Positions 15,182 to 32,154 of a stretch of DNA of 32,322 bases are shown here, in pieces. The DNA is from Cytophagaceae bacterium (GTDB lineage: Bacteria > Bacteroidota > Bacteroidia > Cytophagales > Cytophagaceae): NCBI GenBank assembly GCA_014376985.1, contig JACMQM010000026.1:1-32322 (forward strand), given 5' to 3'. The notes beneath the pieces are model-generated. The model did no database searches. It had not been told where the DNA came from and saw only the letters and a list, made by a program, of their open reading frames with translations. Both the position numbers and the translations under genes were made by a program. Each line of letters begins with the position of its first letter. The stretch's first letter is position 1.

Positions 15182-16006
15182 TTATCGAATCTGCAACTCC
15201 GGCAAACAACCATTCAATCCCTTCAACTTCACATCCGACAAAGCACTTCCAGAAACCATCAGCACTTTCAGTTTTTTCAACTCACAAAAACAATCCGGCA
15301 ATTCTTTGATGGCATCTTCTTCTATCGTTAAAAAACGTAGCGTAATCATTTTACAAATTCCCTCGGGCAAACTTTCAATGTTGGTATTATCAATGAATAA
15401 AATCTTCAGAGCCGGTTGACTCAAAACCCATGTACCAATAGTCGACATGGGATTACCAGAAAGGATTAACGACTTGAGTGTCTTCAATACAAAAGAAGAA
15501 GAAGGATAACCCGTCAATTGGTTGGAATGCAGATCCAACTCTTCCAGCTGGCTGCATTTGCTCACTGCATCGGGAATAACGGTCAAGTTGTTTTCCGAGA
15601 CATCCAATACTTTTAAAGCAGGATGAAAAATAGTGGTTGGCAATTCAGTTAAATTATTACCCGCATACTGGAGTGTGTGAAGTTTTCTGCACTTATCAAA
15701 TAGATTCATTGGAATAGTCTCAATATGGTTGTAAGAAATATTGAGGGTATGAAGATTCTTGAATGTTAATATTTCTACTGGGAAAATCTTTAATTTCTTG
15801 CTTTCGAGGGATAGCTCACTCACCCGCAAGGGTGACCTCAGAGCGTCTTCCAAAGAAAAAAAGATACTGTCGTATGGATTCTGATCTTTAAGATGAGTGC
15901 CGTTGCCCACTTGAAAATTAACTTCGCCGGACGACTGTGCATGACTTATCGAAACAAGCAGAAAATGCCATACCAGTACAAATAAAAACCTCACTCTGAA
16001 TCTCAT
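15182..16006 (-). CDS. Secreted leucine-rich repeat protein
   Basis: About 274 residues from the preferred ATG at 16006, which is followed by an arginine-rich signal peptide ending S-H-A-Q; the frame continues upstream to an ATG at 16033. The mature protein is built of about nine leucine-rich repeats of 22-24 residues of the L-x-x-L-x-L-x-x-N-x-L-x-x-L/I-P type (for example L-N-I-S-Y-N-H-I and L-D-L-H-S-N-Q-L), ending in degenerate repeats. No T9SS tail or lipobox is visible, so it is probably periplasmic. Such repeats serve in protein binding; the partner is unknown. It lies downstream of the GH26 terminator and is probably a separate unit. Confidence 0.85.
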   Translation of the reverse strand: MRFRVRFLFVLVWHFLLVSISHAQSSGEVNFQVGNGTHLKDQNPYDSIFFSLEDALRSPLRVSELSLESKKLKIFPVEILTFKNLHTLNISYNHIETIPMNLFDKCRKLHTLQYAGNNLTELPTTIFHPALKVLDVSENNLTVIPDAVSKCSQLEELDLHSNQLTGYPSSSFVLKTLKSLILSGNPMSTIGTWVLSQPALKILFIDNTNIESLPEGICKMITLRFLTIEEDAIKELPDCFCELKKLKVLMVSGSALSDVKLKGLNGCLPELQIR

Positions 16007-16070
16007 AGTAAAAACGAATGAGCTAAAATACATTATTATTTATAACCTGAAAACAGACATAGAATAAATA

Positions 16071-16124: not shown

Positions 16125-18935
16125 TTATAACTTCACAATAACCCTAGTTAAGAATTCAGATCCTGTATCGATCTGAATATAATACAAGCCAGACGGTATA
16201 TCCTTTAGCGAGAGACTTGCATTGGGTTCCATCGCTCTGTAAGCAATAACTTCAAACCCTTGCGCATCAAGTACACGGACTTTAGTTGATTTGTTGGTAT
16301 TGAACATTATGTAATCAGATGTTGGATTTGGAGACAGTATAAGTAGTTCAGAAGACTCAATTGCTGACCTATCATCTGAACTTCTAGAAGCACATGTCCC
16401 TTTATCCAACCAAGCGTCAGACCAATATGCTCCTGAACCTGGACCATAGGCCCAAGCTGCTCCATTGCACCAACCGGAGTAAGGATAAGGCTTGCATTCG
16501 TATTGTCTGTTGTTATTTTTTACCTTACTACCAGCTGTATAATTTCCACTTTCAACATATTGTACAAGCGAAGTACAAGCATTGGTAACCACGTTTGCAA
16601 CATTAACCGATACCGCAGAAGAGGTTGTAACTGCGCCACTATTGTCTGTTGCTTTGGCTGTAATCGTATATGTTCCAGCAACTAAATTTGTCCAAGTATA
16701 TGAATAGGGAGACGTAGCGTCACTGTATAGTAAAGCAGACCCATTGTAGAAATCTACTTTTGCAATAGAACCATCGCTGTCTGATGCATTCGCACTGATT
16801 ATGATCGAAGCAGGAGCATTAACCGTTGAATTTACAGGAGAAGTCAAGAATACACTAGGCGCTTGATTTACGCTTGTAATTGGAGATCCATATACCTCCA
16901 ACTCGTAAATAGAATAACCATAAACTGTTCCTCTGGCAGAACCGTTGATACTTATAAAACGATACATGCCAGTCAATCCTGTAAAATCATTGCTTAAGGT
17001 CGTATTACCAGTAATCGTTTTTAGTGTCACCCAAGTCATGCCATCGGCAGACCCGATAATCCGATAGTCTCTTCCATAAGCAGCTTCCCATGTAATCTTT
17101 ACACGATTCACATTAAAGTTGGATCCCAAATCAACCGTTAACCATTCTGCATTTGTATACGCGGAAGACCATCGTGTTCCATATTGCCCATCAACTGAAT
17201 TGCTTGCCATATTTAATCCTGCTTCAGTAGACGACACCGTCACTTGCTTACCTGTTGCTAAGTTTGCAGGAACTGTAACTATTGCTGTCACCGTCACATT
17301 GACAGCGGCAGAAGTTGCGACTGCTCCTCTATCATCTGTAGCTCTGACAGTAAGACTATACGTACCTGCTGCTACATTTGCCCAAGAAAAAGTATACGGT
17401 GCCGTATTATCAGAACCCAATAAGGTTGTTCCATTATAAAAATCTACTTTGGCAATGGATCCATCACTATCCGATGCATTCGAGCTGATTGAAAGTGTAG
17501 CAGGTGCAGTAAAGGTTGCATTGTTTGAGGGAGCAGTGATCGCCACTGTAGGCGGTTGATTCACATTCGCTGTAGTTCCGTAAACTTCCAATTCATAAAT
17601 GGAATAACCGTATACTGTACCTCGTGCCGTGCCATTCATTCTCACATAGCGAGCAGCACCTGTTAAACCCGTATGATCGTTGACTAAGGTATTATTCCCA
17701 GTAATCGCTTTTATTGTTGACCAAGTAGTGCCATCAGTTGAATATTGTATTGTATAATCTCTTCCGTAAGCCGCTTCCCAAGTGATCTTAACTCTGTTTA
17801 CATTATAGTTGGCCCCCAAATCTACCGTCAACCATTGCGCATCGGTATACAAGGATGACCAGCGTGTGGAATAACTTCCATCTACTGCATTCGAGGCCAC
17901 ATTAGATCCTGCTTCTGTTGATGATACCGTTACAAGTTTACCTTTTGAAAGACTATTCGGCACTGGATTCCAACCTGGCATTTCATTGAGTGTTAGTACA
18001 TTCGTAGCATTATAAACATCCGATAGTTGAGCGTTGGTGTTTTTCTGTTGTGTTAATTCTGCCCAACCCATAAAATATGCCCAGCGTGGTTGTGCTTGTA
18101 AAATTTCTTTTGTTGGCAACACTTCACATTCGCCAATACCAATGGGTTTATTGCCCGCTTTATTTAAAATAGCCTGGTATTTTGCAGTAGAATAATTTTG
18201 CCCATCGGAATTATACATATCAAGTGACAAGACATCCCAATTGGCACTACCCGGATCATAATTATTTAAATCGCTGGATAGCGTACCAAAATCTTGTACA
18301 TTCCATACAAATATTAAATTTGAAAGTCCTTTTGTATTGACCAGGTAATCTCTCGTAATTTGGTACAATCTGCTACTTCCATTTGGGCCAGGTCTGTTTG
18401 CCCACCAAAATACATAGGGGTGGTTCATCTCGTGAAAAGGACGGAACAACACTTCAACACCACTATTTTCTAAGTCTTGAAGATAAGAAGCAATGACATC
18501 TAAACGGGCTTTCCAGTTTTTATTAATCTGAGAACCATCGGTGATCAAGTCGTTCCATTCTGAGTCGCTAAGCCTACCCGTTACGTTAGACCAATCGCAA
18601 GGTTCGCCCATTGTTGGCGGACAGCCATGAAAAGTAAAAGCTACTACTGCTCCTTCTTTCCATCTTGCTTTCGCTTCATTGGTAATCAATGTTCGCCATT
18701 CATGCATTGAACCCGTTCCTCCCCAGTTGTAGAAAGAAAAATCTTCTCCCCAGAGTCCAGCGTTTTGACCTGAAACCGTTTTCATCGCATCCCAATAACT
18801 ACGGTTTTGCTGACCTGCAATACACTTCTTACCAGAAATATCGTAGAGGTAATTGAGTGTATTATAATTCGTTTGAGCTTTTATTGATACTGTAAGTACC
18901 GATAATAAAACTATAAAGAGCAGTTTGTTTATCAT
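16125..18935 (-). CDS. Modular GH26 glycoside hydrolase (probable beta-mannanase), T9SS-exported
   Basis: A 936-residue secreted enzyme. In order: signal peptide (1-20); GH26 domain (about 22-322); F5/8 type C domain (about 334-453); bacterial Ig-like domain (460-550); second F5/8C (558-683); second Ig-like (690-780); a four-cysteine CBM5/12-like module (787-848); and a type A T9SS sorting domain (about 862-936). The catalytic residues are E169 (acid/base, in F-R-P-F-H-E-M-N) and E269 (nucleophile, in I-G-I-G-E-C-E), 100 residues apart as expected. C105 and C113 of F-H-G-C-P-P...P-C recur in the neighbouring GH26 and may form a disulfide. Most GH26 enzymes are endo-beta-1,4-mannanases; other GH26 specificities exist. 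The esterases nearby fit acetylated glucomannan. Confidence 0.93.
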   Translation of the reverse strand: MINKLLFIVLLSVLTVSIKAQTNYNTLNYLYDISGKKCIAGQQNRSYWDAMKTVSGQNAGLWGEDFSFYNWGGTGSMHEWRTLITNEAKARWKEGAVVAFTFHGCPPTMGEPCDWSNVTGRLSDSEWNDLITDGSQINKNWKARLDVIASYLQDLENSGVEVLFRPFHEMNHPYVFWWANRPGPNGSSRLYQITRDYLVNTKGLSNLIFVWNVQDFGTLSSDLNNYDPGSANWDVLSLDMYNSDGQNYSTAKYQAILNKAGNKPIGIGECEVLPTKEILQAQPRWAYFMGWAELTQQKNTNAQLSDVYNATNVLTLNEMPGWNPVPNSLSKGKLVTVSSTEAGSNVASNAVDGSYSTRWSSLYTDAQWLTVDLGANYNVNRVKITWEAAYGRDYTIQYSTDGTTWSTIKAITGNNTLVNDHTGLTGAARYVRMNGTARGTVYGYSIYELEVYGTTANVNQPPTVAITAPSNNATFTAPATLSISSNASDSDGSIAKVDFYNGTTLLGSDNTAPYTFSWANVAAGTYSLTVRATDDRGAVATSAAVNVTVTAIVTVPANLATGKQVTVSSTEAGLNMASNSVDGQYGTRWSSAYTNAEWLTVDLGSNFNVNRVKITWEAAYGRDYRIIGSADGMTWVTLKTITGNTTLSNDFTGLTGMYRFISINGSARGTVYGYSIYELEVYGSPITSVNQAPSVFLTSPVNSTVNAPASIIISANASDSDGSIAKVDFYNGSALLYSDATSPYSYTWTNLVAGTYTITAKATDNSGAVTTSSAVSVNVANVVTNACTSLVQYVESGNYTAGSKVKNNNRQYECKPYPYSGWCNGAAWAYGPGSGAYWSDAWLDKGTCASRSSDDRSAIESSELLILSPNPTSDYIMFNTNKSTKVRVLDAQGFEVIAYRAMEPNASLSLKDIPSGLYYIQIDTGSEFLTRVIVKL

Positions 18936-19157: not shown

Positions 19158-22100
19158 TTATTTCTTAATGATAGCCTTCGTCACCAATTCATTACCCGTA
19201 TCGATGCGAATATAATAAATGCCCGCTGCCAGTTCTGATACATGAAGAATACCATTGGCATTTACCGATGTCTCCGTCATCACTTCCATACCTTGTACAT
19301 TGAATACGCGCACTGTTGAGGCAAGATCTGAATGGATGGTTATCACATCGGTTGCAGGATTCGGAGATAAAAATACTTCTGAAACTTGTGCGTCATTTAT
19401 TCCTACTAGATCCGCTGCACTTCTTGCAGTACATGATCCTTTGTCCAACCAAGCATCTGACCAGTATGCGCCAGAACCAGGACCATAAGCCCATGCTGCA
19501 CCGTTACACCAGCCTGAGTAAGGATAAGGCTTGCACTCGTATTGTCTACCGTTGTTTTTCACTTTGCTACCTGCAGCATAGCCTGCGTTTTCAATATATT
19601 GAGCAATAGATGCGCACGTATTGTTAACCACATTGACCACTGTAATGGTGATCGCAGAAGACGTAGTACCTGCTCCACTGTTATCTGTTGCTCTAGCAGT
19701 AATCGTATAGGTCCCCGCTGCCACATTCGTCCATGTAAAGGTAAATGGTGCGGCATAATCATTAAACAACAAAGTAGAACCGCTGTAAAAATCTACTTTA
19801 GAAACAGTACCATCGGCATCACTTGCATTGGCAGATATGGTAATTGTAGCCGGTGCATTGAATGATGCATTCGCTGAAGGAGAAGTTAAAGTCACTGATG
19901 GAGGCGTATTTACAACCACCACATTAGTTACCGTAACCACAGAAGCAAAAGAGGTTGCCACCGCACCCACATTGTCCGTTGCTCTTGCAGTAATCGTATA
20001 GCTACCTGCAGCGATATTCGTCCAGGTGAACGAATATGGCACTGTAGCATCAGAATTCAATAACGTTGTTCCATTGTAGAAATCTACTTTAGTTACCGAA
20101 CCGTCGCTGTCCGAAGCATTGGCGCTGATCACAATAGAAGCTGGAGCAGTTACACTGGTGTTGTTCGCAGGAGAAGTTAAAGACACCGTCGGCAACTGAT
20201 TCGTATTACCAGCCGCAGTTCCATAAACTTCCAATTCGTAGATTGAATAACCATACGCCGTTCCTCTCGCAGTGCCGTTCATACTGATGTAACGATACGT
20301 TCCAGTAAGGCCAACATGATCATTCGTTAACGTTGTGTTACCTGTAATCGTTTTTAACGCAGTCCACGTAACACCATCCAAAGAACCTACTACTCTGTAA
20401 TCTCTTCCGTAGGCTGCTTCCCATGTAATCTTCACGCGGTTCACATCGTAGTTAGCGCCTAAATCAACCGTTAACCATTGTGCATCGGTGTATAAAGAAG
20501 ACCAACGCGTTCCATACTGACCGTCCACTGCATTAGAAGCTACGTTGGCTCCTGCTTCTGTCGAAGAAACCGTTACAGCTTTACCAGTAGCCAAGTTAAC
20601 CGGAACTGGTATCACGCCATACACTTCCAATTCATAGACAGAGTAACCAAAGGCTGTTCCTCTCGCTGTACCATTCATACGCACATAACGTGCTGTTCCT
20701 GTAAGTCCAGTATGATCATTCATTAAGCTGGTGTTTCCTGTCACCGCTCTCGCTGTTGTCCAGTTTGTACCATCCGTAGAATACTGTACGGTATAATCTC
20801 TTCCGTACGCAGCTTCCCATGTAATCTTCACACGATTCACGGCATACACTGCACCTAAATCAACAGTCAGCCATTCTGCGTCTGTATAAGCAGACGACCA
20901 ACGAGTAGCGTATTGACCATCTACCGCATTCCCCGCTGCATTCACTCCTGCTTCGGTGGATGAAACAGATACCGGCTTACCGGTTGCTAAATTTACAGGA
21001 ACAGGTGTAACATTGCTTCGGGATTTCACCACCTGATCAATGGCGAGTAAAAGTGATTTAGCCCCTGTTGCATCTTGAGACAATTCCCAAATCATCACAC
21101 CACCTATAGCCTGATCAAAAGAGTAATTAACTTTTGCTTTGATGGTGGGAATGCCATTGTACCAAATTGTACTGCCCGCCTGGTCTGCATTTTCAGCACC
21201 AGCATACGTACTCACGATATTTTTATAAGACCATTCTCCAGAAACAGAGCCAAATCCATAGCCGTAAAAAGGAAGTCCCAATACCGCTTTATTTTTTGGC
21301 AATCCTCTTCCTAACCAATATTGAACATTACTTTGTGCATAAGCATAAGAAGAATGCTGCCCCGGATTAGACGTATCCCAAGGACCAGTTGCATCATACG
21401 CCATGATGTTAATAAAGTCAAAATAGGCAAACGTAGAACTTGGCACATTACCGCCCCCATATCCTTGAGACAAAGCGGCTGTCAATCCTTTGCCTGCAGG
21501 CTTCAAGGCGGCAGAAAGATCCGCGATGAATTTACCATAATCACCATTGATGGCTGGACCTTCTAAGTCGACATCGATGCCGTCGAAATTACGTGCTTGC
21601 AGATACGCAGCTATTTTAGAAACAAAACCTGCTCGACGTGCATCACTGATCAGGCTGAAATAATTACCTTGAATAGTAGGATCCGTTGAAGCAGAACCTC
21701 CTCCAATAGAAACGTATACTTTCACATTGTTGGCATGTGCTTTTTGAATTAAAGCAGCATCGCCTGCATTAAACGATAGATCTCCATTGGAATTTGGATT
21801 TTCAAACGCAATGTTAATGTGGGTTAACTTTGCATAATCAATCGCATTGGAATACGTATTTAGATCATTCCAATTGGCCACATAAGCCACCACTTTAGTA
21901 GCAGATGAGGGCGGAGTGACAGGATTATTCACTACCACAGTAATCGCTGAAGATGTTGTTCCTGCCCCGTTGTTATCAGTCCCTCTAGCTGTAATGGTAT
22001 AAGTTCCAGCTGCTACATTAGACCATGAATAAGTATAAGGTGCTGCATTGTCAGTAGCCAATAAAGTACTTCCGCTATAGAAATCTACTTTAGTAACCGA

Positions 22101-23597
22101 ACCGTCGCTATCCGCTGCATTGGCGCTGATTAAAAGAGTAGCGGGTGCTGTGACGTTCGAATTGTTATTAGGAGAAGTAAGTGATACTGTTGGTGCTTGA
22201 TTAACGACAGCAGCAGTGCCATATACTTCCAATTCAAATATAGAATATCCATATGCGGTTCCACGAGCCGTTCCATTGATGCGAACATAGCGAGCCATTC
22301 CTGTAAGACCTGTATGATCATTGCTTAAGCTCGTATTTCCGGAAATTATTTTCGCCGTTGCCCAAGTTGTTCCATCGGTAGAATATTGCACCGTATAATC
22401 TTTTCCATAAGCTGCCTCCCATGTAATTTTTACACGGTTCACATTGTAGTTGGAAGCTAAGTCAACCGTTAACCACTGCGCATCGCTGTATGCAGAAGAC
22501 CAACGGGTGATATAACTGCCATCTACAGCATTGGATGCGATGTTAGCTCCCGCTTCAGTAGAAGACACTGTAACAGGTTTTGCAGTTGCTAAGTTAGTTG
22601 GTGCTGTTACATTGCCCCATCCTGGCATTTCATCGCGTGTAATTACACGTGGATTAGCATAGCAAGCTTGAATTTCGGCTACGGAATTAGTTTGCTGGGG
22701 AGGATTGTTGTAATCTTTTTCTAGGCCATAAGCCCATACCATGAAGAAACTCATGTTAGGCTGGTTGTTAAACTCGGACTGCACCGGCAATTTAAACGTT
22801 TCTCCATTCGCTACAGGCTTGCCTGATGCTTGTCCAAGTAAAGCATTGTAATAACTTGTATTGGTATGGCCATCGCCGTAAATATCTAATGCAGCAATAT
22901 CAAAATATGCAGCACCAGGATTATAATCTCCAAAATTAGTACTCATGTCTTGCACATCCCACACCCAAATTAAATTCGAAAGACCTTTAGTATTGGTCAT
23001 GTAATCGTGCGTCAATTTCCAAAGCGCTTTTGTATTTGCAGCACCACCAGAGTTCCACCAAAAGGCAGTTTGGTTTTGTTCATGAAGTGGTCTCCACATC
23101 ACCTCTACTCCTTTATCTTCTAAGTATTGCAGGTAAACCGATATTTGATCGATTCTTGATTTCCAAGTATTGTTTAAAGCACTTCCATTGGTAAGTAGTT
23201 GACTCCATTGTGAAGAATTTAAACTACTTAATAAACCTCCGTCCCAATTACATACATCTCCTTGCACTGGAGGACAAGTATGCCACATGAGGTTCACCGC
23301 AGCTCCCGCATTCCATTGACGTTCGGCTTCGTAGGTAATGGCCCATCGAGCTGGCCCATCTCCATTAAACAAAAAATCGCCGCTGTACAAAGCAGGATAT
23401 TTCCCCGTCAACTGGTTAACCCTGTTTGTCCAATAGTTCTCGTTGGTGCCATCTTTTTGATCGTTGTGCTGACCCGACATGATGTATTTACCTGTAATAC
23501 TATTTAAATAATTCACTGTTTTGAAACGGGATTGTCCCTGAACCGATACAATAAGTAGCAGCAAAAGGCCTAATAGAAATAGTAGCTTTTTTCTCAT
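19158..23597 (-). CDS. Bifunctional GH26-GH18 modular enzyme, T9SS-exported
   Basis: A 1479-residue secreted protein. In order: signal peptide (1-21); GH26 (about 23-327); F5/8 type C (335-460); Ig-like (466-556); GH18 (568-858); two tandem F5/8C domains (869-993 and 1001-1124); two Ig-like domains (about 1134-1222 and 1230-1320); four-cysteine CBM5/12-like module (about 1325-1389); type A T9SS tail (about 1400-1479). GH26 catalytic residues are E173 (R-P-L-H-E-Q-N) and E266 (V-A-N-G-E-T). GH18 has the full D-G-I-D-V-D-L-E motif (D672-E679), with S-I-G-G-G and M-A-Y-D strands, so both domains should be active. The GH18 part resembles a chitinase-like group common in Bacteroidota. Mannan- plus chitin-directed activity in one chain is the simplest reading; exact substrates are unproven. 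Confidence 0.93.
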   Translation of the reverse strand: MRKKLLFLLGLLLLLIVSVQGQSRFKTVNYLNSITGKYIMSGQHNDQKDGTNENYWTNRVNQLTGKYPALYSGDFLFNGDGPARWAITYEAERQWNAGAAVNLMWHTCPPVQGDVCNWDGGLLSSLNSSQWSQLLTNGSALNNTWKSRIDQISVYLQYLEDKGVEVMWRPLHEQNQTAFWWNSGGAANTKALWKLTHDYMTNTKGLSNLIWVWDVQDMSTNFGDYNPGAAYFDIAALDIYGDGHTNTSYYNALLGQASGKPVANGETFKLPVQSEFNNQPNMSFFMVWAYGLEKDYNNPPQQTNSVAEIQACYANPRVITRDEMPGWGNVTAPTNLATAKPVTVSSTEAGANIASNAVDGSYITRWSSAYSDAQWLTVDLASNYNVNRVKITWEAAYGKDYTVQYSTDGTTWATAKIISGNTSLSNDHTGLTGMARYVRINGTARGTAYGYSIFELEVYGTAAVVNQAPTVSLTSPNNNSNVTAPATLLISANAADSDGSVTKVDFYSGSTLLATDNAAPYTYSWSNVAAGTYTITARGTDNNGAGTTSSAITVVVNNPVTPPSSATKVVAYVANWNDLNTYSNAIDYAKLTHINIAFENPNSNGDLSFNAGDAALIQKAHANNVKVYVSIGGGSASTDPTIQGNYFSLISDARRAGFVSKIAAYLQARNFDGIDVDLEGPAINGDYGKFIADLSAALKPAGKGLTAALSQGYGGGNVPSSTFAYFDFINIMAYDATGPWDTSNPGQHSSYAYAQSNVQYWLGRGLPKNKAVLGLPFYGYGFGSVSGEWSYKNIVSTYAGAENADQAGSTIWYNGIPTIKAKVNYSFDQAIGGVMIWELSQDATGAKSLLLAIDQVVKSRSNVTPVPVNLATGKPVSVSSTEAGVNAAGNAVDGQYATRWSSAYTDAEWLTVDLGAVYAVNRVKITWEAAYGRDYTVQYSTDGTNWTTARAVTGNTSLMNDHTGLTGTARYVRMNGTARGTAFGYSVYELEVYGVIPVPVNLATGKAVTVSSTEAGANVASNAVDGQYGTRWSSLYTDAQWLTVDLGANYDVNRVKITWEAAYGRDYRVVGSLDGVTWTALKTITGNTTLTNDHVGLTGTYRYISMNGTARGTAYGYSIYELEVYGTAAGNTNQLPTVSLTSPANNTSVTAPASIVISANASDSDGSVTKVDFYNGTTLLNSDATVPYSFTWTNIAAGSYTITARATDNVGAVATSFASVVTVTNVVVVNTPPSVTLTSPSANASFNAPATITISANASDADGTVSKVDFYSGSTLLFNDYAAPFTFTWTNVAAGTYTITARATDNSGAGTTSSAITITVVNVVNNTCASIAQYIENAGYAAGSKVKNNGRQYECKPYPYSGWCNGAAWAYGPGSGAYWSDAWLDKGSCTARSAADLVGINDAQVSEVFLSPNPATDVITIHSDLASTVRVFNVQGMEVMTETSVNANGILHVSELAAGIYYIRIDTGNELVTKAIIKK
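20218..21010 (-). repeat. 396-bp tandem duplication of the F5/8 type C module
   Basis: Within the GH26-GH18 gene two F5/8C modules with their P-V-P-V-N-L-A-T-G-K linkers lie back to back with a 396-bp (132-codon) period, e.g. the shared ACTTCCAATTC at 20227 and 20623. The copies have diverged in the middle (Y-T-V-Q-Y-S-T-D-G versus Y-R-V-V-G-S-L-D-G). Confidence 0.85.
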
Positions 23598-23838: not shown

Positions 23839-26800
23839 ATGCGTCTACTAGTATTTTTGTACTGTTTATGGGGTTCATTTTTGGCTTATTCTCAGATAGG
23901 TCAATATAAGGTATATAACCTCACCAGTGAAGATGGATTACTGAGTGATAATGTCGAGTGCCTATTCCAGGACAGTTATGGATTTTTATGGATAGGAAGC
24001 AACGATGGAGTCGTCAGATGGGATGGTTACAACTTTAAAAAATACATTCATCAGGAAGGAGACGTCAATACCCTATCCAATAATATTATCTATACCATTG
24101 TAGAGGACAGCCGGCGACGGTTATGGGTAGGCACGATAAACGGGATCAATCTGTACGATCCGCTGTCGGATACCTTTTCTAAAATAAAACTGGATGCTGC
24201 TTCTGGAAATATTCCTGTCAATGCCATCAAAGAAGATTCTAAACACAGGCTTTGGCTAGCTACATCAGATGGTTTTTGCCAGTACAACCACGATTATCCT
24301 CAAAAAAGCAAATGGTATTATGCGGAAACTCCAAATGGATTAAGTGACGCGGTTGTATTTGCAATGGATATCGACCGAAACGATAACCTTTGGTTAGGCA
24401 CTTTCAATGGAGGATTAAATAAATTCAATACAGAAACCTGCACATTCTCTTACTTTACGCACCGTCCCGATGATCCCTCAACCATATGCAGCAATAAATT
24501 AAAAAGACTTTTTATAGACAAAGATCAAAACATCTGGGTGGGCTCTATAGATAATGGTCTTTCTGTAATCAATCAAAAAGGCGAAGTGTTCAGGCAGTAC
24601 AAAAGTTTTGAAACTGCGCGGGGTATAAAAGAAAGATTGAATAACATCACCTGCATCTACCAGGATGAAACCGGAATGATATGGGTTGGTGCAGGTGACC
24701 AGAAGTTATGCTACTTGAACACGAGCAAAAATGCCCTGGTGCCATTTATGAATCCTGTTCATAATCAATACCACATTACCTGTCAGGGTATCACTTCATT
24801 GTTTGAAGACTTTTTCGGCAATACCTGGTTTGGCTCTGAACGTGACGGACTTTTTTATACCAACAAAACAAAAAATATGTTCAGGCATTATTACCACAAC
24901 TACTCCAATGCCGCAGGACTCAGCCATAATAAAGTAACAGCGTTTTGTCAGGATAAAAATAACGGCACCTGGATAGGAACAAATGGCGGAGGACTCGATT
25001 ACCTTGACCATACAAACAACAGCATTCAATCCTTCAGTAAAAAAACGGGTATACAAAGCCAGGTTATTCAGGATATCGTATCGGAAGCATCCGGCAAACT
25101 TTGGATTGCTACACACAATGGAGGAGTAACGATGTTTGATCCTAACAATCGAAAGAGTGAGACATTCCAGCATGATCCGCTTCGTAAAAATTCATTGGTT
25201 TTTAATGACATCACCAGTCTGGTCATCGATGATTCGCTGGTTTGGATGGGAACATACGGAGAAGGGGTTTGCATCTATAATACGCTAAGAAAACAATTTT
25301 ATCACCATCAAAACAATACTGTATTTCCATTCAATATGCGTGCACCAGGCTGGACCAACCATTTGTACAAAGATTCTAAAAAAAGAATCTGGATGGGTTC
25401 ATACGGTGGTTTGCACCGGTACGACAATCATACCTTCCGCACCTTCACGCATTCTGCTGATCCTACCAGCATCAGCAATCATGACATCAACATGATCGCA
25501 GAAGATGCCCGTGGAAACATCTGGATCATTACCGTAGCCGGTGGACTGGAATTATTTGATGAAAACACGAATACGTTTATCCATTACAGTAAGCTATTCG
25601 ACTTACCGCTTACTCTTAAATCCATTGTAGTGGACAACAAGGGCTTATTATGGATGGGCTCCAATTCAGGGCTAATATGTTTCGACCCGGTTTCGAAAAA
25701 ACAAATGCGCTATGGCAGTTCGGATGGGCTCCAAGGGGATTTTTTCAACGTGAGAGCTGCATCAAAAAATAAATCAGGAGAACTCTTTTTTGGTGGCAGT
25801 AATGGTTTCAATGCCTTTCACCCGGAAAAAATTAGGCATGATTTTAAGCCATCCGGTTTCTACTTCACAGCTCTTTCTGTATTTGGTGTTGCACAAAAAC
25901 CTACGGCCAGTCAATCTGTACTCTCTAAAAATATTCAGGTTACAGATACATTAAGCCTATCCTACAACCAATCTTTTTTCACCATAGAGTTTACTGACAT
26001 CAACTTTTATTCTCCCGGTAAAACCCTGTATGCTTATAAGCTAGAAGGTCTTTATGACCGATGGATCAATAACCAATCGGAACGAAAGATATCATTTACC
26101 AATTTACCGGCAGGCCGCTATACCTTAAAAGTTAAATATACATTACCCAATGGCAGATGGCAGCTGGCCGACAAAACACTCATCATTCTTGTCGCTCCAC
26201 CCTGGTGGAATTCCTGGTGGTTCATCAGCTTAGCTGTCGCCAGCACTTGTATCGCGTTGTTCCTGCTCTACAAACAACGCGTCAGAAACATAAAGAAGCG
26301 GAATGAAGTACTGGAAACAGAAGTGAGATCCAGAACAATGGAACTGTCGGATCGTAATTCAGATTTGCAGGAAAGCAATGAAGAAATTAAACAACAAAAA
26401 GAAAAACTGGAAGCGTATAACTTGGAAGTGGTGCGGCAATCTGATAAAATTCTTGCGCAACAAGAATTCATCCTGCGGCAAAACCAAGAACTTGAAAAAC
26501 TAGTGGGTAGACTTTTCATCAGCGATGAAACCAAAAACTTATTCTTCAATATACTGGCTCACGATCTCCGCGGACCTATAAGTGGCATAAGCAATTTGTC
26601 TGATCTGCTAATCAACAATATATCGAATTTGTCGTCCCAGGAAATTATAGATTTCAGCCAACACATCAAGCAATCTTCGGATGCCACTCAAAAATTACTT
26701 TCTAACTTACTGGACTGGGCACGCAGCCAATCCCAATACCTCGACTACCTGCCTGTTGCCCTGAACAGTTATGACCTGATTGTACGCAATTTGATATTGA

Positions 26801-28068
26801 TGGAACAGCAATGCTTGCAAAAAGACATTCAGGTAATTAATCTGGTAGGCAAGGAACATTCCATTTTTGCAGATTACAACATGATCGACACGGTAGTTCG
26901 TAACCTCATCAGCAATGCGGTAAAGTTTACCCCACCGGCCGGTACCATCACAATAACATCCAGTTTGCACCATGAAGAAGTTGAAATCAGAGTCAGTGAT
27001 ACAGGATTAGGCATCAGTGATCAAGAACTTAAAAATATTTTTCAGTTGGGCAAACGAAAAAGTACGAAAGGTACAAAAGGAGAAACAGGTACCGGACTAG
27101 GCTTAATCATTGTAAAAGAATTCACAGCAATCAATAAAGGGAGTGTGGCGATCGAAAGCAAAGAAAAAGAAGGGACTACCTTTACACTTCGTTTACCCAT
27201 GGCTTTGGAAGTAGTGCCTGCTGAAAGTAACTTTCAGGCAGAAGCTATTGTACAGGAAAATAAAGGCATGTCTCTTTTGTCAGAAGATCAATTAACAACG
27301 ATAAAAGGGAATAAAATACTTTTGGTAGAAGACAATCTATCCATGCGCAATCACCTCAAATACTTACTCGCATCGACCTTCGAAATTACAGAAGCTGAAA
27401 ATGGGCGAGAGGCGCTTTTGCTGGCAGCCGAAATCCAGCCCATGGTGGTCATTACAGACATGGTTATGCCCGTAATGGATGGCTTGGAATTTTGCAAAGC
27501 ATTAAAGAAAGACCAGAATACATCACATATTCCTGTTATCATTCTCACCAGTCACGATAATGAAGAAGGTAAACTGTCTGGTTATTATGCCGGCGCAGAC
27601 ATTTACCTGACTAAACCTGTGCAGAAAGAAATTTTATTGCAAATCATATTCAATATCCTGCAAAGCAGAAAGCACCTGCTAAACAATATATTGACAAGAG
27701 AATCTGAATCTCTTGAAGAAGAGCATACATTGACTTTAATAGATCAGAAGTTCCTCGAAAAAATAAGTTCTTTCATTGAGGAAAATATCGCCAATCAAGA
27801 ATTAGAAGTTCATCACATTGTGCGCCATATGGCCATGAGCCGAAGTGTATTATATTCTAAATTCAAAGCCATTACAGGGCAAGGAGTAAATGAATTCATT
27901 CGACTGCTCAGACTCAGAAAGAGTAAAGAACGTCTCATCACAAGTAGCATGAGTATCAATGAAATTGCCGATGCGGTGGGTTTTAACAGTGCTTCTTATT
28001 TTATCCGCTGCTTTGTGAAAGAATACCAGATTACTCCAACGGAATTCAGAGGAGGTAAAAAACAATAA
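23839..28068 (+). CDS. Hybrid two-component system sensor/regulator (HTCS)
   Basis: A 1409-residue single-chain signalling protein. It has a signal peptide (1-19), then a periplasmic sensor of two beta-propellers made of Reg_prop repeats (to about 690; repeated W-[IVLM]-G and L-S-x-N-x-[IV] motifs) and a Y_Y_Y domain (about 700-775). One membrane helix (about 793-812) and a coiled coil follow. The kinase region has phospho-acceptor H908 (L-A-H-D-L-R-G-P), an N-box (N-L-I-S-N-A-V-K-F) and D-T-G-L-G-I / G-T-G-L-G-L ATP-binding motifs. A receiver domain follows (from about 1160; phospho-acceptor D1207 in I-T-D-M-V-M-P), and a C-terminal AraC-type HTH (about 1300-1405). All signalling residues are present. 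Such proteins sense glycan fragments and activate adjacent degradation genes; the likely target is the divergent GH26-GH18 gene. Confidence 0.95.
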   Translation: MRLLVFLYCLWGSFLAYSQIGQYKVYNLTSEDGLLSDNVECLFQDSYGFLWIGSNDGVVRWDGYNFKKYIHQEGDVNTLSNNIIYTIVEDSRRRLWVGTINGINLYDPLSDTFSKIKLDAASGNIPVNAIKEDSKHRLWLATSDGFCQYNHDYPQKSKWYYAETPNGLSDAVVFAMDIDRNDNLWLGTFNGGLNKFNTETCTFSYFTHRPDDPSTICSNKLKRLFIDKDQNIWVGSIDNGLSVINQKGEVFRQYKSFETARGIKERLNNITCIYQDETGMIWVGAGDQKLCYLNTSKNALVPFMNPVHNQYHITCQGITSLFEDFFGNTWFGSERDGLFYTNKTKNMFRHYYHNYSNAAGLSHNKVTAFCQDKNNGTWIGTNGGGLDYLDHTNNSIQSFSKKTGIQSQVIQDIVSEASGKLWIATHNGGVTMFDPNNRKSETFQHDPLRKNSLVFNDITSLVIDDSLVWMGTYGEGVCIYNTLRKQFYHHQNNTVFPFNMRAPGWTNHLYKDSKKRIWMGSYGGLHRYDNHTFRTFTHSADPTSISNHDINMIAEDARGNIWIITVAGGLELFDENTNTFIHYSKLFDLPLTLKSIVVDNKGLLWMGSNSGLICFDPVSKKQMRYGSSDGLQGDFFNVRAASKNKSGELFFGGSNGFNAFHPEKIRHDFKPSGFYFTALSVFGVAQKPTASQSVLSKNIQVTDTLSLSYNQSFFTIEFTDINFYSPGKTLYAYKLEGLYDRWINNQSERKISFTNLPAGRYTLKVKYTLPNGRWQLADKTLIILVAPPWWNSWWFISLAVASTCIALFLLYKQRVRNIKKRNEVLETEVRSRTMELSDRNSDLQESNEEIKQQKEKLEAYNLEVVRQSDKILAQQEFILRQNQELEKLVGRLFISDETKNLFFNILAHDLRGPISGISNLSDLLINNISNLSSQEIIDFSQHIKQSSDATQKLLSNLLDWARSQSQYLDYLPVALNSYDLIVRNLILMEQQCLQKDIQVINLVGKEHSIFADYNMIDTVVRNLISNAVKFTPPAGTITITSSLHHEEVEIRVSDTGLGISDQELKNIFQLGKRKSTKGTKGETGTGLGLIIVKEFTAINKGSVAIESKEKEGTTFTLRLPMALEVVPAESNFQAEAIVQENKGMSLLSEDQLTTIKGNKILLVEDNLSMRNHLKYLLASTFEITEAENGREALLLAAEIQPMVVITDMVMPVMDGLEFCKALKKDQNTSHIPVIILTSHDNEEGKLSGYYAGADIYLTKPVQKEILLQIIFNILQSRKHLLNNILTRESESLEEEHTLTLIDQKFLEKISSFIEENIANQELEVHHIVRHMAMSRSVLYSKFKAITGQGVNEFIRLLRLRKSKERLITSSMSINEIADAVGFNSASYFIRCFVKEYQITPTEFRGGKKQ

Positions 28069-28075
28069 ACTGACT

Positions 28076-29164
28076 TTACTTATTGGACTCACGAAACTCT
28101 TTCGGGGTACAATCAAATTCTTTTTTAAACACCCTGTTAAAATGAGGGATGTTGTTATAGCCCGTTAGGTAGGCGATGTCAGAAACAGGTTTGTGGGTGT
28201 GCAGCAACAAGCGCTTCACTTCCGCTAAACGGATGGTATTAAGGTAAGACTTAAACGAACTATCTAAATTATTTTTAATCAATAAACCAATCTCTCGTTC
28301 AGTAACACCAATCGCCTGCTGAAGATCCTGGGCGGAAAGTTCCGGGTTCGAATAATGTTGCGCCATGTAAGATTTAATTTGATCGAGCTTGGAATGCGAA
28401 TTTTGTTGATCAATCACATGAACTTGATAAGGCACCAATACTTTTTTCTTCTGTATAAAATATACCAAAGTCATCATGATTAAGATTGCGAGCACAGAAA
28501 AAGCATATGTAGTATAAAGGTAGCGGTTGTTGTTCGAAAAGTAGATGGAACGGATTTGAATTTCATCCCTTTTACCTGCACCCAAGGCCTGACAACTATT
28601 GACGACTAAATAGGTAACCCGAGAAAAATCTAATGCACTAAAATCTTCCTTTTTCATTTGTTGCAAACGCAACCACCAACTTGGTATTTCAAAATCACTT
28701 TTATTAATGGCATACACACCTTCTCCCTCATATTCTATTACAGCAGAAAGCGGCAACCATGACAAAGCTTTACCCGATTTGGTATATCCTTTATAATCTA
28801 AGGTTAAAAAAACTGGAATACGTGTACCCTGCTCAGATCTTAAATAAATGGAAAGCTGGTCGAATTGAGAAAAATCCATAAAGAGATCATGCGTGGAATC
28901 CTGGCGATGTAAGTACAAGCCAACAAAGGGTTCTTGAACCGCCCTACTCAACGTATATTTAAAACGAATGATACTATCCTGGTCGATCGCATAACTTCCC
29001 TCTGACCAATTGGAAGGAATTTCTTCATGGGAGATACCCAATTGAATTTGGGAACCTTTGTCAAAAGGATAGAGCTTTTTCGTTTCAAAATCTAGACTCC
29101 AGTAAATGACTAAACTAAGCACCGTAAAAACGGTTAAAAAGAAGATGTAATAATTTTTCTTCAT
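28076..29164 (-). CDS. Membrane-spanning AraC family regulator with periplasmic sensor domain
   Basis: About 362 residues from the preferred ATG at 29164 (M-K-K-N-Y-Y-I-F-F-L, start of the first helix); the frame extends to an ATG at 29233. A first transmembrane helix (about residues 4-24) is followed by about 180 extracytoplasmic residues of mixed beta strands rich in Trp and Tyr. A second helix (about 215-238) and a basic stop-transfer segment follow, then a C-terminal AraC-type DNA-binding domain (about 258-360; I-A-Y-L-T-G-Y, F-N-R-V-F-K-K-E-F, T-P-K-E-F-R). There is no kinase or receiver. It would act as a one-component transmembrane sensor bound to DNA. It is divergent from the esterase genes, which are the likely target. 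The sensor resembles a carbohydrate-binding jelly roll, but this is uncertain. Confidence 0.85.
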   Translation of the reverse strand: MKKNYYIFFLTVFTVLSLVIYWSLDFETKKLYPFDKGSQIQLGISHEEIPSNWSEGSYAIDQDSIIRFKYTLSRAVQEPFVGLYLHRQDSTHDLFMDFSQFDQLSIYLRSEQGTRIPVFLTLDYKGYTKSGKALSWLPLSAVIEYEGEGVYAINKSDFEIPSWWLRLQQMKKEDFSALDFSRVTYLVVNSCQALGAGKRDEIQIRSIYFSNNNRYLYTTYAFSVLAILIMMTLVYFIQKKKVLVPYQVHVIDQQNSHSKLDQIKSYMAQHYSNPELSAQDLQQAIGVTEREIGLLIKNNLDSSFKSYLNTIRLAEVKRLLLHTHKPVSDIAYLTGYNNIPHFNRVFKKEFDCTPKEFRESNK

Positions 29165-29317
29165 CAAATAATTAAGAACCGATGAAAATACAAAAAAGTA
29201 GCTCAAAGTTCTCGAATTTGAACTCATTTTCAATTTGATCTTTTTTGCAAAACTCTATGCTTTTTATGTTTTGTCATGAAACCCAGTTATAATCAAGTCA
29301 ATTCCTAAAAATGAAAA

Positions 29318-29368: not shown

Positions 29369-30772
29369 ATGAACATCAAAATACTACTTCTGATTTCTTT
29401 TTTATGCGTCCAAGCCGTAGAAAAAAGTCAAGCTACCGATTTCTACATAAAAGCGGACGATCCTGCCATACAATACATGGGTAGAATTGACTTTTCTAAC
29501 CCTCAAAAACCCAGCTATTCTTTTCCAGGCATCAGTATAAAGGCCAAATTTAACAGCAGCACCATTAAAGCTGTCATTAAAGACTTTGGATTGGGAGGAG
29601 AACAAACGACAAACTACTATAATGTGATCATCGATGGACAGTTTGTACAAAAATTACAGGTCAACGCCATCGATACCTTGTACCTTATTGCCACAGGACT
29701 TGATGCCAGCGACCACACCGTTGAATTGATCAAACGAACAGAAAGTTCAGTGGGGAAAAGCTCGTTCTTTGGTTTTGTCATTTCCTCTAGTGTCTTACTT
29801 CCATTAGATCCTATGCCCATTTATAAAATGGAATTTATTGGAGATTCATGGACTTGCGGATACGGTAACGAAATCAGCACGAACAGTCCCAATACAGGCT
29901 TTCACTCGATCAATGAAGACAATGCCCGTGCGTGGGGATACACGGTCGCGAAAAAATTTAATGCTCAGTACAACGCCACGGCTATATCTGGTCGTGGGTT
30001 ATACAGAAACAATACGGGGTCTACAACCGGCGTCTTACCTGAGGAATTCAACAAAACCTTCCCAGGTCAATCAAGCCCTCTTTGGAATTTCAACAACTAC
30101 ATTCCAGACTTGGTGATCATTCATTTGGGAACCAATGATTTTTACCCAGAAACGGTATCAAGCACAGATTTGCTAGACTCCGCGCTCTTCGTCAATAAAT
30201 ACATTGCATTTGTGAGCGATATTAGGACTAAGTATGGGTCCTCTACAAAGATCATTTGCGCCTTTGGTAATTCTAAATCCGATTGGTGGCCAACAGGTTT
30301 AAGACATTTAAGCCGTTGGAGAAATTATGTGAACGCCACCGTCAATTACTTCAACACCAACAGTGATAATGCAGTTTACGCTTTTGAGTTGACCGTACAA
30401 AGTGCTCCTTACGGAGAAGACTGGCATCCCACCATCGTCACTCACAATCAAATGGCAAATCAAATCGCCCCTTTCATCACCACCATTACTGGACGCTCGG
30501 CCTCTTCCTATGAAGCTCCGTTAACCTACAACACTGTAACTTCAATCGACACAGGAATCGCCAATGATAATAAACTTATATTTTACCCCAATCCTACATC
30601 GGGCGTTTTTTCACTAGATGGAATAGACGAGAATATAAGCTGGGAAATCTACGACAGCACTGGACGCTCAATCCATCGTGGATTAGGTAAAACTGGCAAT
30701 ATAGAATCCTTAAAGGCGGGCATGTACTTTGTCTTGCTACAAAACAAACGCATTCCATTCGTCAAACAATAA
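29369..30772 (+). CDS. CE2-like SGNH carbohydrate acetyl esterase, T9SS-exported
   Basis: A 467-residue secreted esterase with a signal peptide (1-22). An N-terminal beta-sandwich (about 24-140; opening I-Q-Y-M-G-R-I-D-F-S) precedes the SGNH hydrolase domain (about 150-375). The nucleophile is S160 in F-I-G-D-S-W; G-T-N-D (254-257) gives the oxyanion block; H353 in D-W-H-P is the catalytic histidine. The jelly roll plus SGNH order and the G-R-x-D-F opening match CE2 acetyl esterases, which act on acetylated mannan, glucomannan and xylan. The last 70 residues (Y-P-N-P-T-S-G-V-F through V-K-Q) are a type A T9SS tail. It is followed after 5 bases by a second SGNH gene. Removal of acetyl groups would aid the nearby GH26 enzymes. 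Confidence 0.88.
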   Translation: MNIKILLLISFLCVQAVEKSQATDFYIKADDPAIQYMGRIDFSNPQKPSYSFPGISIKAKFNSSTIKAVIKDFGLGGEQTTNYYNVIIDGQFVQKLQVNAIDTLYLIATGLDASDHTVELIKRTESSVGKSSFFGFVISSSVLLPLDPMPIYKMEFIGDSWTCGYGNEISTNSPNTGFHSINEDNARAWGYTVAKKFNAQYNATAISGRGLYRNNTGSTTGVLPEEFNKTFPGQSSPLWNFNNYIPDLVIIHLGTNDFYPETVSSTDLLDSALFVNKYIAFVSDIRTKYGSSTKIICAFGNSKSDWWPTGLRHLSRWRNYVNATVNYFNTNSDNAVYAFELTVQSAPYGEDWHPTIVTHNQMANQIAPFITTITGRSASSYEAPLTYNTVTSIDTGIANDNKLIFYPNPTSGVFSLDGIDENISWEIYDSTGRSIHRGLGKTGNIESLKAGMYFVLLQNKRIPFVKQ

Positions 30773-30777
30773 CCTTA

Positions 30778-32154
30778 ATGACTATGAAAAAGAACTGCTA
30801 TACTATTTTATCGTGTGCTGTGATAATGCTCTTATCATTGCAAAAAGTACAAGGAGCCGTTGTCGTCCCTCTTGATGATCCAAACATGCGGTATGACGGA
30901 GCATTCTACAATGTTGTTACACCTACATTGGTAACATTTAATCGTCACCAAGCAGCCGTATATAACAATGTAGAATCAGGGATTTACGGATCATGGATCA
31001 ACCAGTGGGTCATCACGCAAACTGGAATTCGTGTGCGCTTTAAAACGACAAGTCCGACCATTACACTGACTTTTCAAAAACGTACGGGAGGAGGAAGTAT
31101 AGGAACATCTCCTACGAATGGCTTTTCTGTATTTGCGAATGGCAACTTAATAAATACCTATTCATCCCTATCGTTTACCATCAATAACCCCAGTGCGGGT
31201 AATGCTACCCTTTACGAAGTAAGCCTACCCAACCTTTGGGCAGTCGATCTGATAGGCATGTCAATAGATGATACGCACGCATTGGATGATCCAGGTACAT
31301 TAAGCAAACCGATTTACGTAGCCATAGGAGATTCTAAAACCCATGGCACGGGCCAGTATGTATCTTCAGCTAAAACATATCCTTTTCAACTCGCCAACTT
31401 GATGGGCTGGGATCTGCACAATATTGCGGTAGCTGGATCTACCTTAGGATGGGCAATGGCGCTGAACATCAAAAATCAGTCAGTAGATGTACTGACGATT
31501 GAATTGGGCTATAACGATTGGGAATACCTGTCAACAAACTTAGCGACAATGCAACATGAATACGAAAGACTGATTGATTCGATTCGATTGTATCAACCTA
31601 CAGCAAAGATTTTTTGCATTACGCCAATCGTCACCACCGATCCTTCTGGCGCAGCTCCTTACACACTCGATGCGTATAGAAACATGGTACAAAACATCGT
31701 CAGTATTCGCATGCAGAACGACCCAAAGATATTCGTCATTCCAGGCCCTTCGGTATCTGATGCTGGCATGCTAGCCAGTGGAGATGTGGTGCATTTAAGC
31801 GAAGGCGGTGCCTTAACATTAGCGCAAAACCTCGTTGCTCCAATTACAAATCCGTCTTCAATTGTACTAACCACCACAGCAACCGGTGAAGCCATTGAAA
31901 CGGCAAAAAAAAAGATCTTCATTAAGCAACTAAATAATGTGTACCTCACGATTGTTATTGAAGAAGAAGGCAATTACAACGTAAATATATATACAACCAA
32001 CGGTACTTTAGTCGATTCAAAAAATGACACGTATCTAAACCGGGGCGACAATACGATTTTTTGGAAGTCCTCGTCCATCAAGAGCGGAAGTCTTTACCTG
32101 ATTCGAATTCAAAAAGGAACTGATGCCTTGAACGAATTGAAGTATGTCGAATAG
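30778..32154 (+). CDS. Second secreted SGNH hydrolase, probable carbohydrate esterase
   Basis: A 458-residue protein beginning five bases after the CE2-like gene. The ATG at 30784 is an equally good start for the signal peptide (M-K-K-N-C-Y-T). An N-terminal beta-rich domain (about 30-170) precedes the SGNH hydrolase domain: nucleophile S186 in A-I-G-D-S-K-T-H-G, a G-Y-N-D block (N246) and D336-V-V-H339 with a following L-S. Thus the full catalytic set is present. The sandwich-then-SGNH layout parallels its neighbour but the sequences share little, so it belongs to a different esterase branch. The C-terminal 80 residues resemble a degenerate T9SS-type sorting domain (N-V-N-I-Y-T-T-N-G-T-L). 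The pair may remove esters from different positions of one polysaccharide. Confidence 0.82.
   Translation: MTMKKNCYTILSCAVIMLLSLQKVQGAVVVPLDDPNMRYDGAFYNVVTPTLVTFNRHQAAVYNNVESGIYGSWINQWVITQTGIRVRFKTTSPTITLTFQKRTGGGSIGTSPTNGFSVFANGNLINTYSSLSFTINNPSAGNATLYEVSLPNLWAVDLIGMSIDDTHALDDPGTLSKPIYVAIGDSKTHGTGQYVSSAKTYPFQLANLMGWDLHNIAVAGSTLGWAMALNIKNQSVDVLTIELGYNDWEYLSTNLATMQHEYERLIDSIRLYQPTAKIFCITPIVTTDPSGAAPYTLDAYRNMVQNIVSIRMQNDPKIFVIPGPSVSDAGMLASGDVVHLSEGGALTLAQNLVAPITNPSSIVLTTTATGEAIETAKKKIFIKQLNNVYLTIVIEEEGNYNVNIYTTNGTLVDSKNDTYLNRGDNTIFWKSSSIKSGSLYLIRIQKGTDALNELKYVE

Follow-up and report, generated by a model that had tools for sequence, protein, structure and literature searches.

What substrate would call for an exported protein in which a mannanase-type and a chitinase-type catalytic domain are joined in one chain? 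The question is raised by a gene of a Cytophagaceae bacterium (order Cytophagales, Bacteroidota; assembly GCA_014376985.1), located on contig JACMQM010000026.1, a complete contig of 32,322 bases from a 389-contig assembly, which as a whole is called here the window. The gene is one uninterrupted open reading frame (ORF) starting with ATG, 19158-23597 on the reverse strand, and encodes 1479 amino acids containing glycoside hydrolase domains of families 26 (GH26) and 18 (GH18). We consider it fairly likely that its product is an exported two-enzyme mannanase-chitinase of a chitin-degrading Cytophagales bacterium, anchored to chitin and acting on algal wall or detritus in which both polymers are present.

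According to Pfam and NCBIfam, the protein is composed of a signal peptide, GH26, CBM32, Big_7, GH18, two further CBM32 and two further Big_7 domains, a small CBM73-like module and a type A tail of the type IX secretion system (T9SS); the Pfam matches include three F5/8 type C (CBM32-type) domains, three Big_7 domains and Por_Secre_tail. For the second CBM32-type domain the best solved match is 4zy9, a domain of a glucanase/chitosanase. The tail scores 48.2 bits with TIGR04183 (cut-off 23) and a signal-peptide-like N-terminus was read directly in the translation, and by these two features the protein is a predicted T9SS type A cargo.

Both catalytic sites, which the original prediction described as complete, with E173/E266 in GH26 and DGIDVDLE ending at E679 in GH18, were found exactly at these positions and in alignment with solved enzymes; Pfam, TIGR04183 and the aligned active sites thus agree with the claim that one T9SS-exported protein holds both catalytic domains in complete form. 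The GH26 domain matches PF02156 over residues 26-323 (E 2.4e-35; 122.8 bits, cut-off 20.2; profile positions 11-311 of 311), and its two glutamates, aligned by the solved-structure search with the catalytic residues of solved GH26 enzymes, are invariant across 30 aligned sequences. GH26 is a beta-mannan family, and the AlphaFold2 model of this domain (mean pLDDT 95.3) groups with beta-mannanases (template modelling (TM) scores mostly 0.79-0.82; 3zm8, 0.82), with lichenases and xylanases scoring much lower (0.60-0.62), the nearest fold being GH26A of Muricauda (6q75; TM 0.90).

The GH18 domain matches PF00704 over residues 568-842 (E 4.3e-43; profile positions 1-317 of 317). The acids of its motif together with M, Y and D of MAYD are invariant in 13 aligned sequences, and the catalytic residues, as well as the MAYD and MIWELSQD stretches, align with solved GH18 enzymes. 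The nearest fold to the AlphaFold2 model (mean pLDDT 94.0) is FjChiB (6xyz; TM 0.91, 37% identity), a chitinase of the endo type whose cleft is open (PMC7426924).

The small C-terminal module had been called CBM5/12-like. A putative chitin-binding module is indeed present, but the family proved to be different: even at E 10 there was no Pfam match of this module to the CBM_5_12 profile, and among solved structures the C-terminal modules, binding chitin, of CbpD (1.4e-9) and GbpA (4e-7) and CBM73 of Cellvibrio LPMO10A (6z41; 4.1e-7) matched it far better than CBM5 of the same Cellvibrio enzyme (6z40; E 0.22), so the CBM5/12 identity was rejected. The module has four cysteines, and in our own residue matching its GWC, AYGPG and YW line up with W371, Y378 and W386, the conserved pattern of CBM73, of which the member studied binds crystalline chitin (PMC8449059). 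By sequence, it resembles CBM73 and is a candidate chitin-binding module. Chitinases of the same genome and genus carry it as well (66-75% identical). The window's second GH26 gene, GH26B (16125-18935), and the fusion have a nearly identical core of this module (RQYECKPYPYSGWCNGAAWAYGPGSGAYWSDAWLDKG), the DNA of their other accessory modules being just about 70-72% identical.

The pairing of the two catalytic domains is very rare; the original prediction, too, had not taken it for a common arrangement. No other locus covering both was detected in 390 genomes of the order searched with residues 22-867. Among 395 genomes of the phylum, GH26 occurs in 74, and a check for GH18 in those whose GH26 is part of a longer open frame showed both domains in the window's own gene only; none of 72,556 plasmid records reaches 80% coverage of the query. 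When 84,980 species were scanned for the nearest relatives of the GH26 domain, a procedure that keeps best matches only and could miss GH26-GH18 proteins with a more distant GH26, 78 loci were retained, of which one also carries GH18 in the same arrangement, making it the one other case in all these collections. It lies on JACPVY010000556.1 (L064), a groundwater contig titled Burkholderiales, and among other Burkholderiales the fusion was found only in the genome of L064 itself out of 195 genomes of the family and in none of 399 genomes of the order. Searches of the literature by phrase and by other terms found no mention of a GH26-GH18 pairing.

The Burkholderiales protein is arranged as signal peptide, GH26, CBM32, Big_7, CBM32, Big_7 and GH18; it ends few residues past GH18 and has neither the CBM73-like module nor a T9SS tail. 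Its catalytic domains are 65% and 75% identical to those of the window protein. This counterpart bears directly on the possibility of an assembly chimera, in which two genes would have been misjoined across repeated Big_7/CBM32 modules. The gene does hold several repeats of 70-75% identity and the source assembly is in 389 contigs, but these repeats are far too diverged to collapse, GC content at third codon positions is similar across the domains, and an independent assembly of another phylum shows the same order across the join with 55% identity over residues 15-645. We therefore rejected the chimera, the probability of which we consider negligible. Since both catalytic domains of L064 are close kin of the window's, the fusion is common to two phyla and is not an assembly join.

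The flanking genes of L064, among them one for urocanate hydratase that shares 77% identity with a Comamonadaceae record, and the GC content of its fusion gene (0.50-0.52, contig 0.51) fit a proteobacterial contig. In the GH26 tree the window sequence groups with L063, L064, L065 and L066 (98/100; the starred set of six in this tree includes one long-branch outlier, L071), while the GH18 tree places L064 as sister to the window sequence (95/90), the pair branching within GH18s from the window's own genus, family and order. On the simplest reading, the fused gene moved between phyla, probably out of Bacteroidota, and the T9SS part was lost or had never been present. Losses or separate joins of GH26 and GH18 may also account for the distribution, because L065 and L066 carry GH26 of the same small group without GH18; the L063 contig ends inside the first CBM32, so its downstream part is not visible. 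In L066 (9146-10882, Aquabacterium), as read by eye, the GH26 of this group is preceded by a CBM5/12-like stretch at the N-terminus, a long run of prolines and a region resembling crystallin. Recurrence in a distant phylum makes the mannanase-chitinase combination a real one, which apparently can be transferred.

A rare pairing could also be formed by chance, by recombination between repeated Big_7/CBM32 modules joining a mannanase to a chitinase, each domain working and the pair having no synergy and no special target. Within the genus and family, one chassis of accessory modules (CBM32, Big_7, CBM73-like module, T9SS tail) indeed serves GH18, GH26, GH5 and other proteins, the accessory DNA of the two neighbouring GH26 genes is 70-72% identical, and in a sister species a GH16-like domain is combined with GH18 in another mixed protein. 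However, the combination recurs in the Burkholderiales contig with catalytic domains that have both diverged from those of the window protein (65% and 75% identity), which indicates that the fusion persisted. Such shuffling we regard as possible, but clearly less probable than a functional pairing on chitin- and mannan-containing material.

Which material this could be depends on the substrates of the two domains. The idea of a target where mannan and beta-GlcNAc polymers occur together, put forward in the original prediction, is a natural one, and its chitin side was strengthened by the CBM73-like module; fungal walls as the prime example did not fare as well. Fungal cell-wall lysis, with GH18 acting on chitin and GH26 on wall mannan, would suit GH18 and the chitin-binding module, but mannan of fungal walls is alpha-linked and served by GH38/76/92/99/125, while endo-1,4-beta-mannanase is assigned to plant hemicellulose (PMC6520439), and the GH26 model groups with beta-mannanases. 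Because of this linkage difference, fungal walls explain GH18 and not GH26, which weakens them as the prime target, and we consider fungal lysis very unlikely. Diatoms, on the other hand, make beta-1,4-mannan (PMC9860051); their wall matrices are rich in mannose and some species also form chitin (PMC3633991, PMC3478156), and Chlorophyte walls are of a glucan-mannan or a glucosamine type (PMC9962006). In view of these wall types and of the alpha-linked fungal mannan, algal material or plant-fungus detritus fits better than fungal walls. A bolder version, which we hold to be unlikely, is that both domains attack a single composite or heteropolymeric wall, for example algal, whose beta-mannan and chitin-like chains are linked to each other physically or covalently, a material unrecognised as a single bacterial substrate, and that the fused gene spreads between phyla through its usefulness against it.

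It is also conceivable, though quite unlikely, that GH26 or GH18 has shifted to an unrecognised substrate, so that the protein is not a usual mannanase-chitinase. The window GH26 belongs to the small separate group mentioned above (98/100) and is just about 50% identical to the others, the loop following its acid/base is altered (WWNSGGAANT for WWGGRPGPNGT), and its nearest solved relative, Muricauda GH26A, had unusual specificity, being inactive on commercial mannans and acting only on diatom-bloom material, from which it removed the beta-mannan signal (PMC9860051). Yet the catalytic and barrel residues are conserved, and Carboxylicivirga has a GH26 of this group (62-63% identity) in a beta-mannan-type locus together with GH130, GH5, esterases, a sodium symporter and an HTCS (hybrid two-component regulator), which by analogy supports beta-mannan as the probable target of the window GH26.

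The favoured reading, a chitin-anchored mannanase-chitinase, can be put together as follows. The signal peptide and T9SS tail would carry the protein to the cell surface or outside, where the CBM73-like module, and probably the CBM32 domains too, would hold it on a chitin-containing solid. From this anchor GH18 would cut chitin internally, as FjChiB does, and GH26 would cut beta-1,4-mannan or glucomannan lying with it, each cut exposing substrate for the other. Judging from gene order, the CE2-type esterase and GH26B may assist by mannan deacetylation and cutting, and the divergent HTCS may switch the set on. The material would be algal wall or detritus holding both polymers rather than fungal wall alone. 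The fused gene itself has persisted and is common to a Burkholderiales lineage, there without the T9SS tail.

Several points weigh against this reading. The mannanase and chitinase activities of the two domains are predictions from sequence and models, and the chitin-holding role of the CBM32 domains is putative. Substrate transfer by homology from Muricauda GH26A is uncertain because that enzyme was inactive on commercial mannans and active only on diatom-bloom mannan. In L064 the GH18 part lacks about 146 nucleotides by our own count (L064:8320-8345) and the frame is broken; this gap may reflect either a true deletion or a fault of the assembly, and the only other fusion found may be non-functional there. 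A SusC/SusD pair was not found among the window genes scanned, although the contig ends at 32322 and the locus may continue, and GH130 was not found beside the gene.

Within the source genome there are 11 GH18 matches (the window's included), four GH20 matches and two GH26, GH130 was looked for and none was found, and GH26 is absent from the other three genomes of this genus. On these counts the bacterium looks like a chitin degrader with added mannan-cutting enzymes built on its chitinase chassis. The neighbours of the fusion gene are listed with its domains in the table below. For the CE2-type esterase the best NCBIfam match is the bifunctional acetylxylan esterase/glucomannan deacetylase model, under the cut-off of that model. 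A leucine-rich-repeat protein (15182-16033) adjoins the GH26 genes. In a relative of the same family (L055:7688-10185) a CE2-type esterase, 42% identical to that of the window, directly adjoins a GH18 protein among housekeeping genes. The mixed protein of the sister species (genome G006, same genus; L052:6784-11583, forward strand) is exported and 1600 amino acids long, with a GH16-like N-terminal domain, CBM35-like and Big_7 modules, GH18, a CBM73-like module and a T9SS tail; its GH16-like domain has an EMDIVE motif and a weak match to agarase 3wz1 (E 4.6e-5). With it, the genus has two mixed fusions that include GH18.

Table. Coordinates of the GH26-GH18 gene, its domains and catalytic residues, and neighbouring genes in the window
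Feature	Position	Strand	Basis
Whole gene, GH26-GH18 protein, 1479 aa with signal peptide	19158..23597	-	ORF, Pfam, NCBIfam
GH26 catalytic domain, residues 22-330	22608..23534	-	Pfam PF02156, fold model
GH26 acid/base E173 (in RPLHEQN)	23079-23081	-	position check
GH26 nucleophile E266 (in GETFKLP)	22800-22802	-	position check
CBM32-type (F5/8 type C) domain 1, residues 336-462	22212..22592	-	Pfam
Big_7 Ig-like domain 1, residues 463-557	21927..22211	-	Pfam
GH18 catalytic domain, residues 560-860	21018..21920	-	Pfam PF00704, fold model, invariant columns
GH18 DGIDVDLE motif, residues 672-679 (D672-E679)	21561-21584	-	position check
CBM32-type domain 2, residues 869-994	20616..20993	-	Pfam, solved-structure search
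CBM32-type domain 3, residues 1000-1130	20208..20600	-	Pfam
Big_7 domain 2, residues 1135-1225	19923..20195	-	Pfam
Big_7 domain 3, residues 1230-1322	19632..19910	-	Pfam
CBM73-like putative chitin-binding module (formerly CBM5/12-like), residues 1326-1398	19404..19622	-	solved-structure matches
T9SS type A sorting domain, residues 1409-1479	19161..19373	-	TIGR04183, PF18962
GH26B, exported: GH26, CBM32, Big_7, CBM32, Big_7, same CBM73-like module, T9SS tail	16125..18935	-	Pfam, module comparison
HTCS with propeller sensor, divergent; probable locus regulator	23839..28068	+	Pfam
AraC-family regulator	28076..29233	-	Pfam, NCBIfam
CE2-type acetylesterase with T9SS tail	29369..30772	+	Pfam, NCBIfam
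Second SGNH/GDSL-type esterase	30778..32154	+	domain scan

A mannanase-chitinase present in two phyla points to a natural material containing both polymers, which can be sought by means of this defined protein; it could also be a lead for enzymes opening algal or mixed biomass.

Among known systems, the closest solved sequences and folds to the window GH26 include GH26A of Muricauda sp. MAR_2010_75 (E 2.6e-48) and the GH26 mannanase of Podospora anserina (3zm8; E 3.2e-29), neither of which has a chitinase domain, and the Muricauda enzyme, unlike the window protein, is probably periplasmic and placed in a mannan locus. FjChiB of Flavobacterium johnsoniae, the solved enzyme closest to the window GH18 in sequence (E 4.7e-58) as well as fold, shares the DxxDxDxE and MAYD motifs, but is an outer-membrane lipoprotein of a chitin locus with SusD proteins and has no GH26, CBM or T9SS tail. 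Another Bacteroidota protein, FjChiA of the same species, also has two catalytic domains, with a long middle region between them, but both are GH18 and serve one polymer, whereas the window protein combines two families with, by homology, different polymers. PbGH26-GH5A of Prevotella bryantii (6d2w) is likewise GH26 fused to a second, different glycoside hydrolase, the partner being a GH5 glucanase instead of a chitinase. Most multi-enzyme glycoside hydrolases, 211 of the 217 in one survey, unite domains that act on a single polymer or on associated ones, and no GH26-GH18 pair is named in the main text of that survey (PMC4928363). The same text describes cellulase:chitinase proteins (Mycobacteria, Chitinophaga, Thiotrix), just six in number, which unite a hydrolase of a plant-type polymer with a chitin hydrolase as here, with cellulase in the place of mannanase. 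Multi-enzyme glycoside hydrolases are thus well known, the GH26-GH18 pairing is not in the literature searched, and its presence in two phyla means that it is no isolated case.

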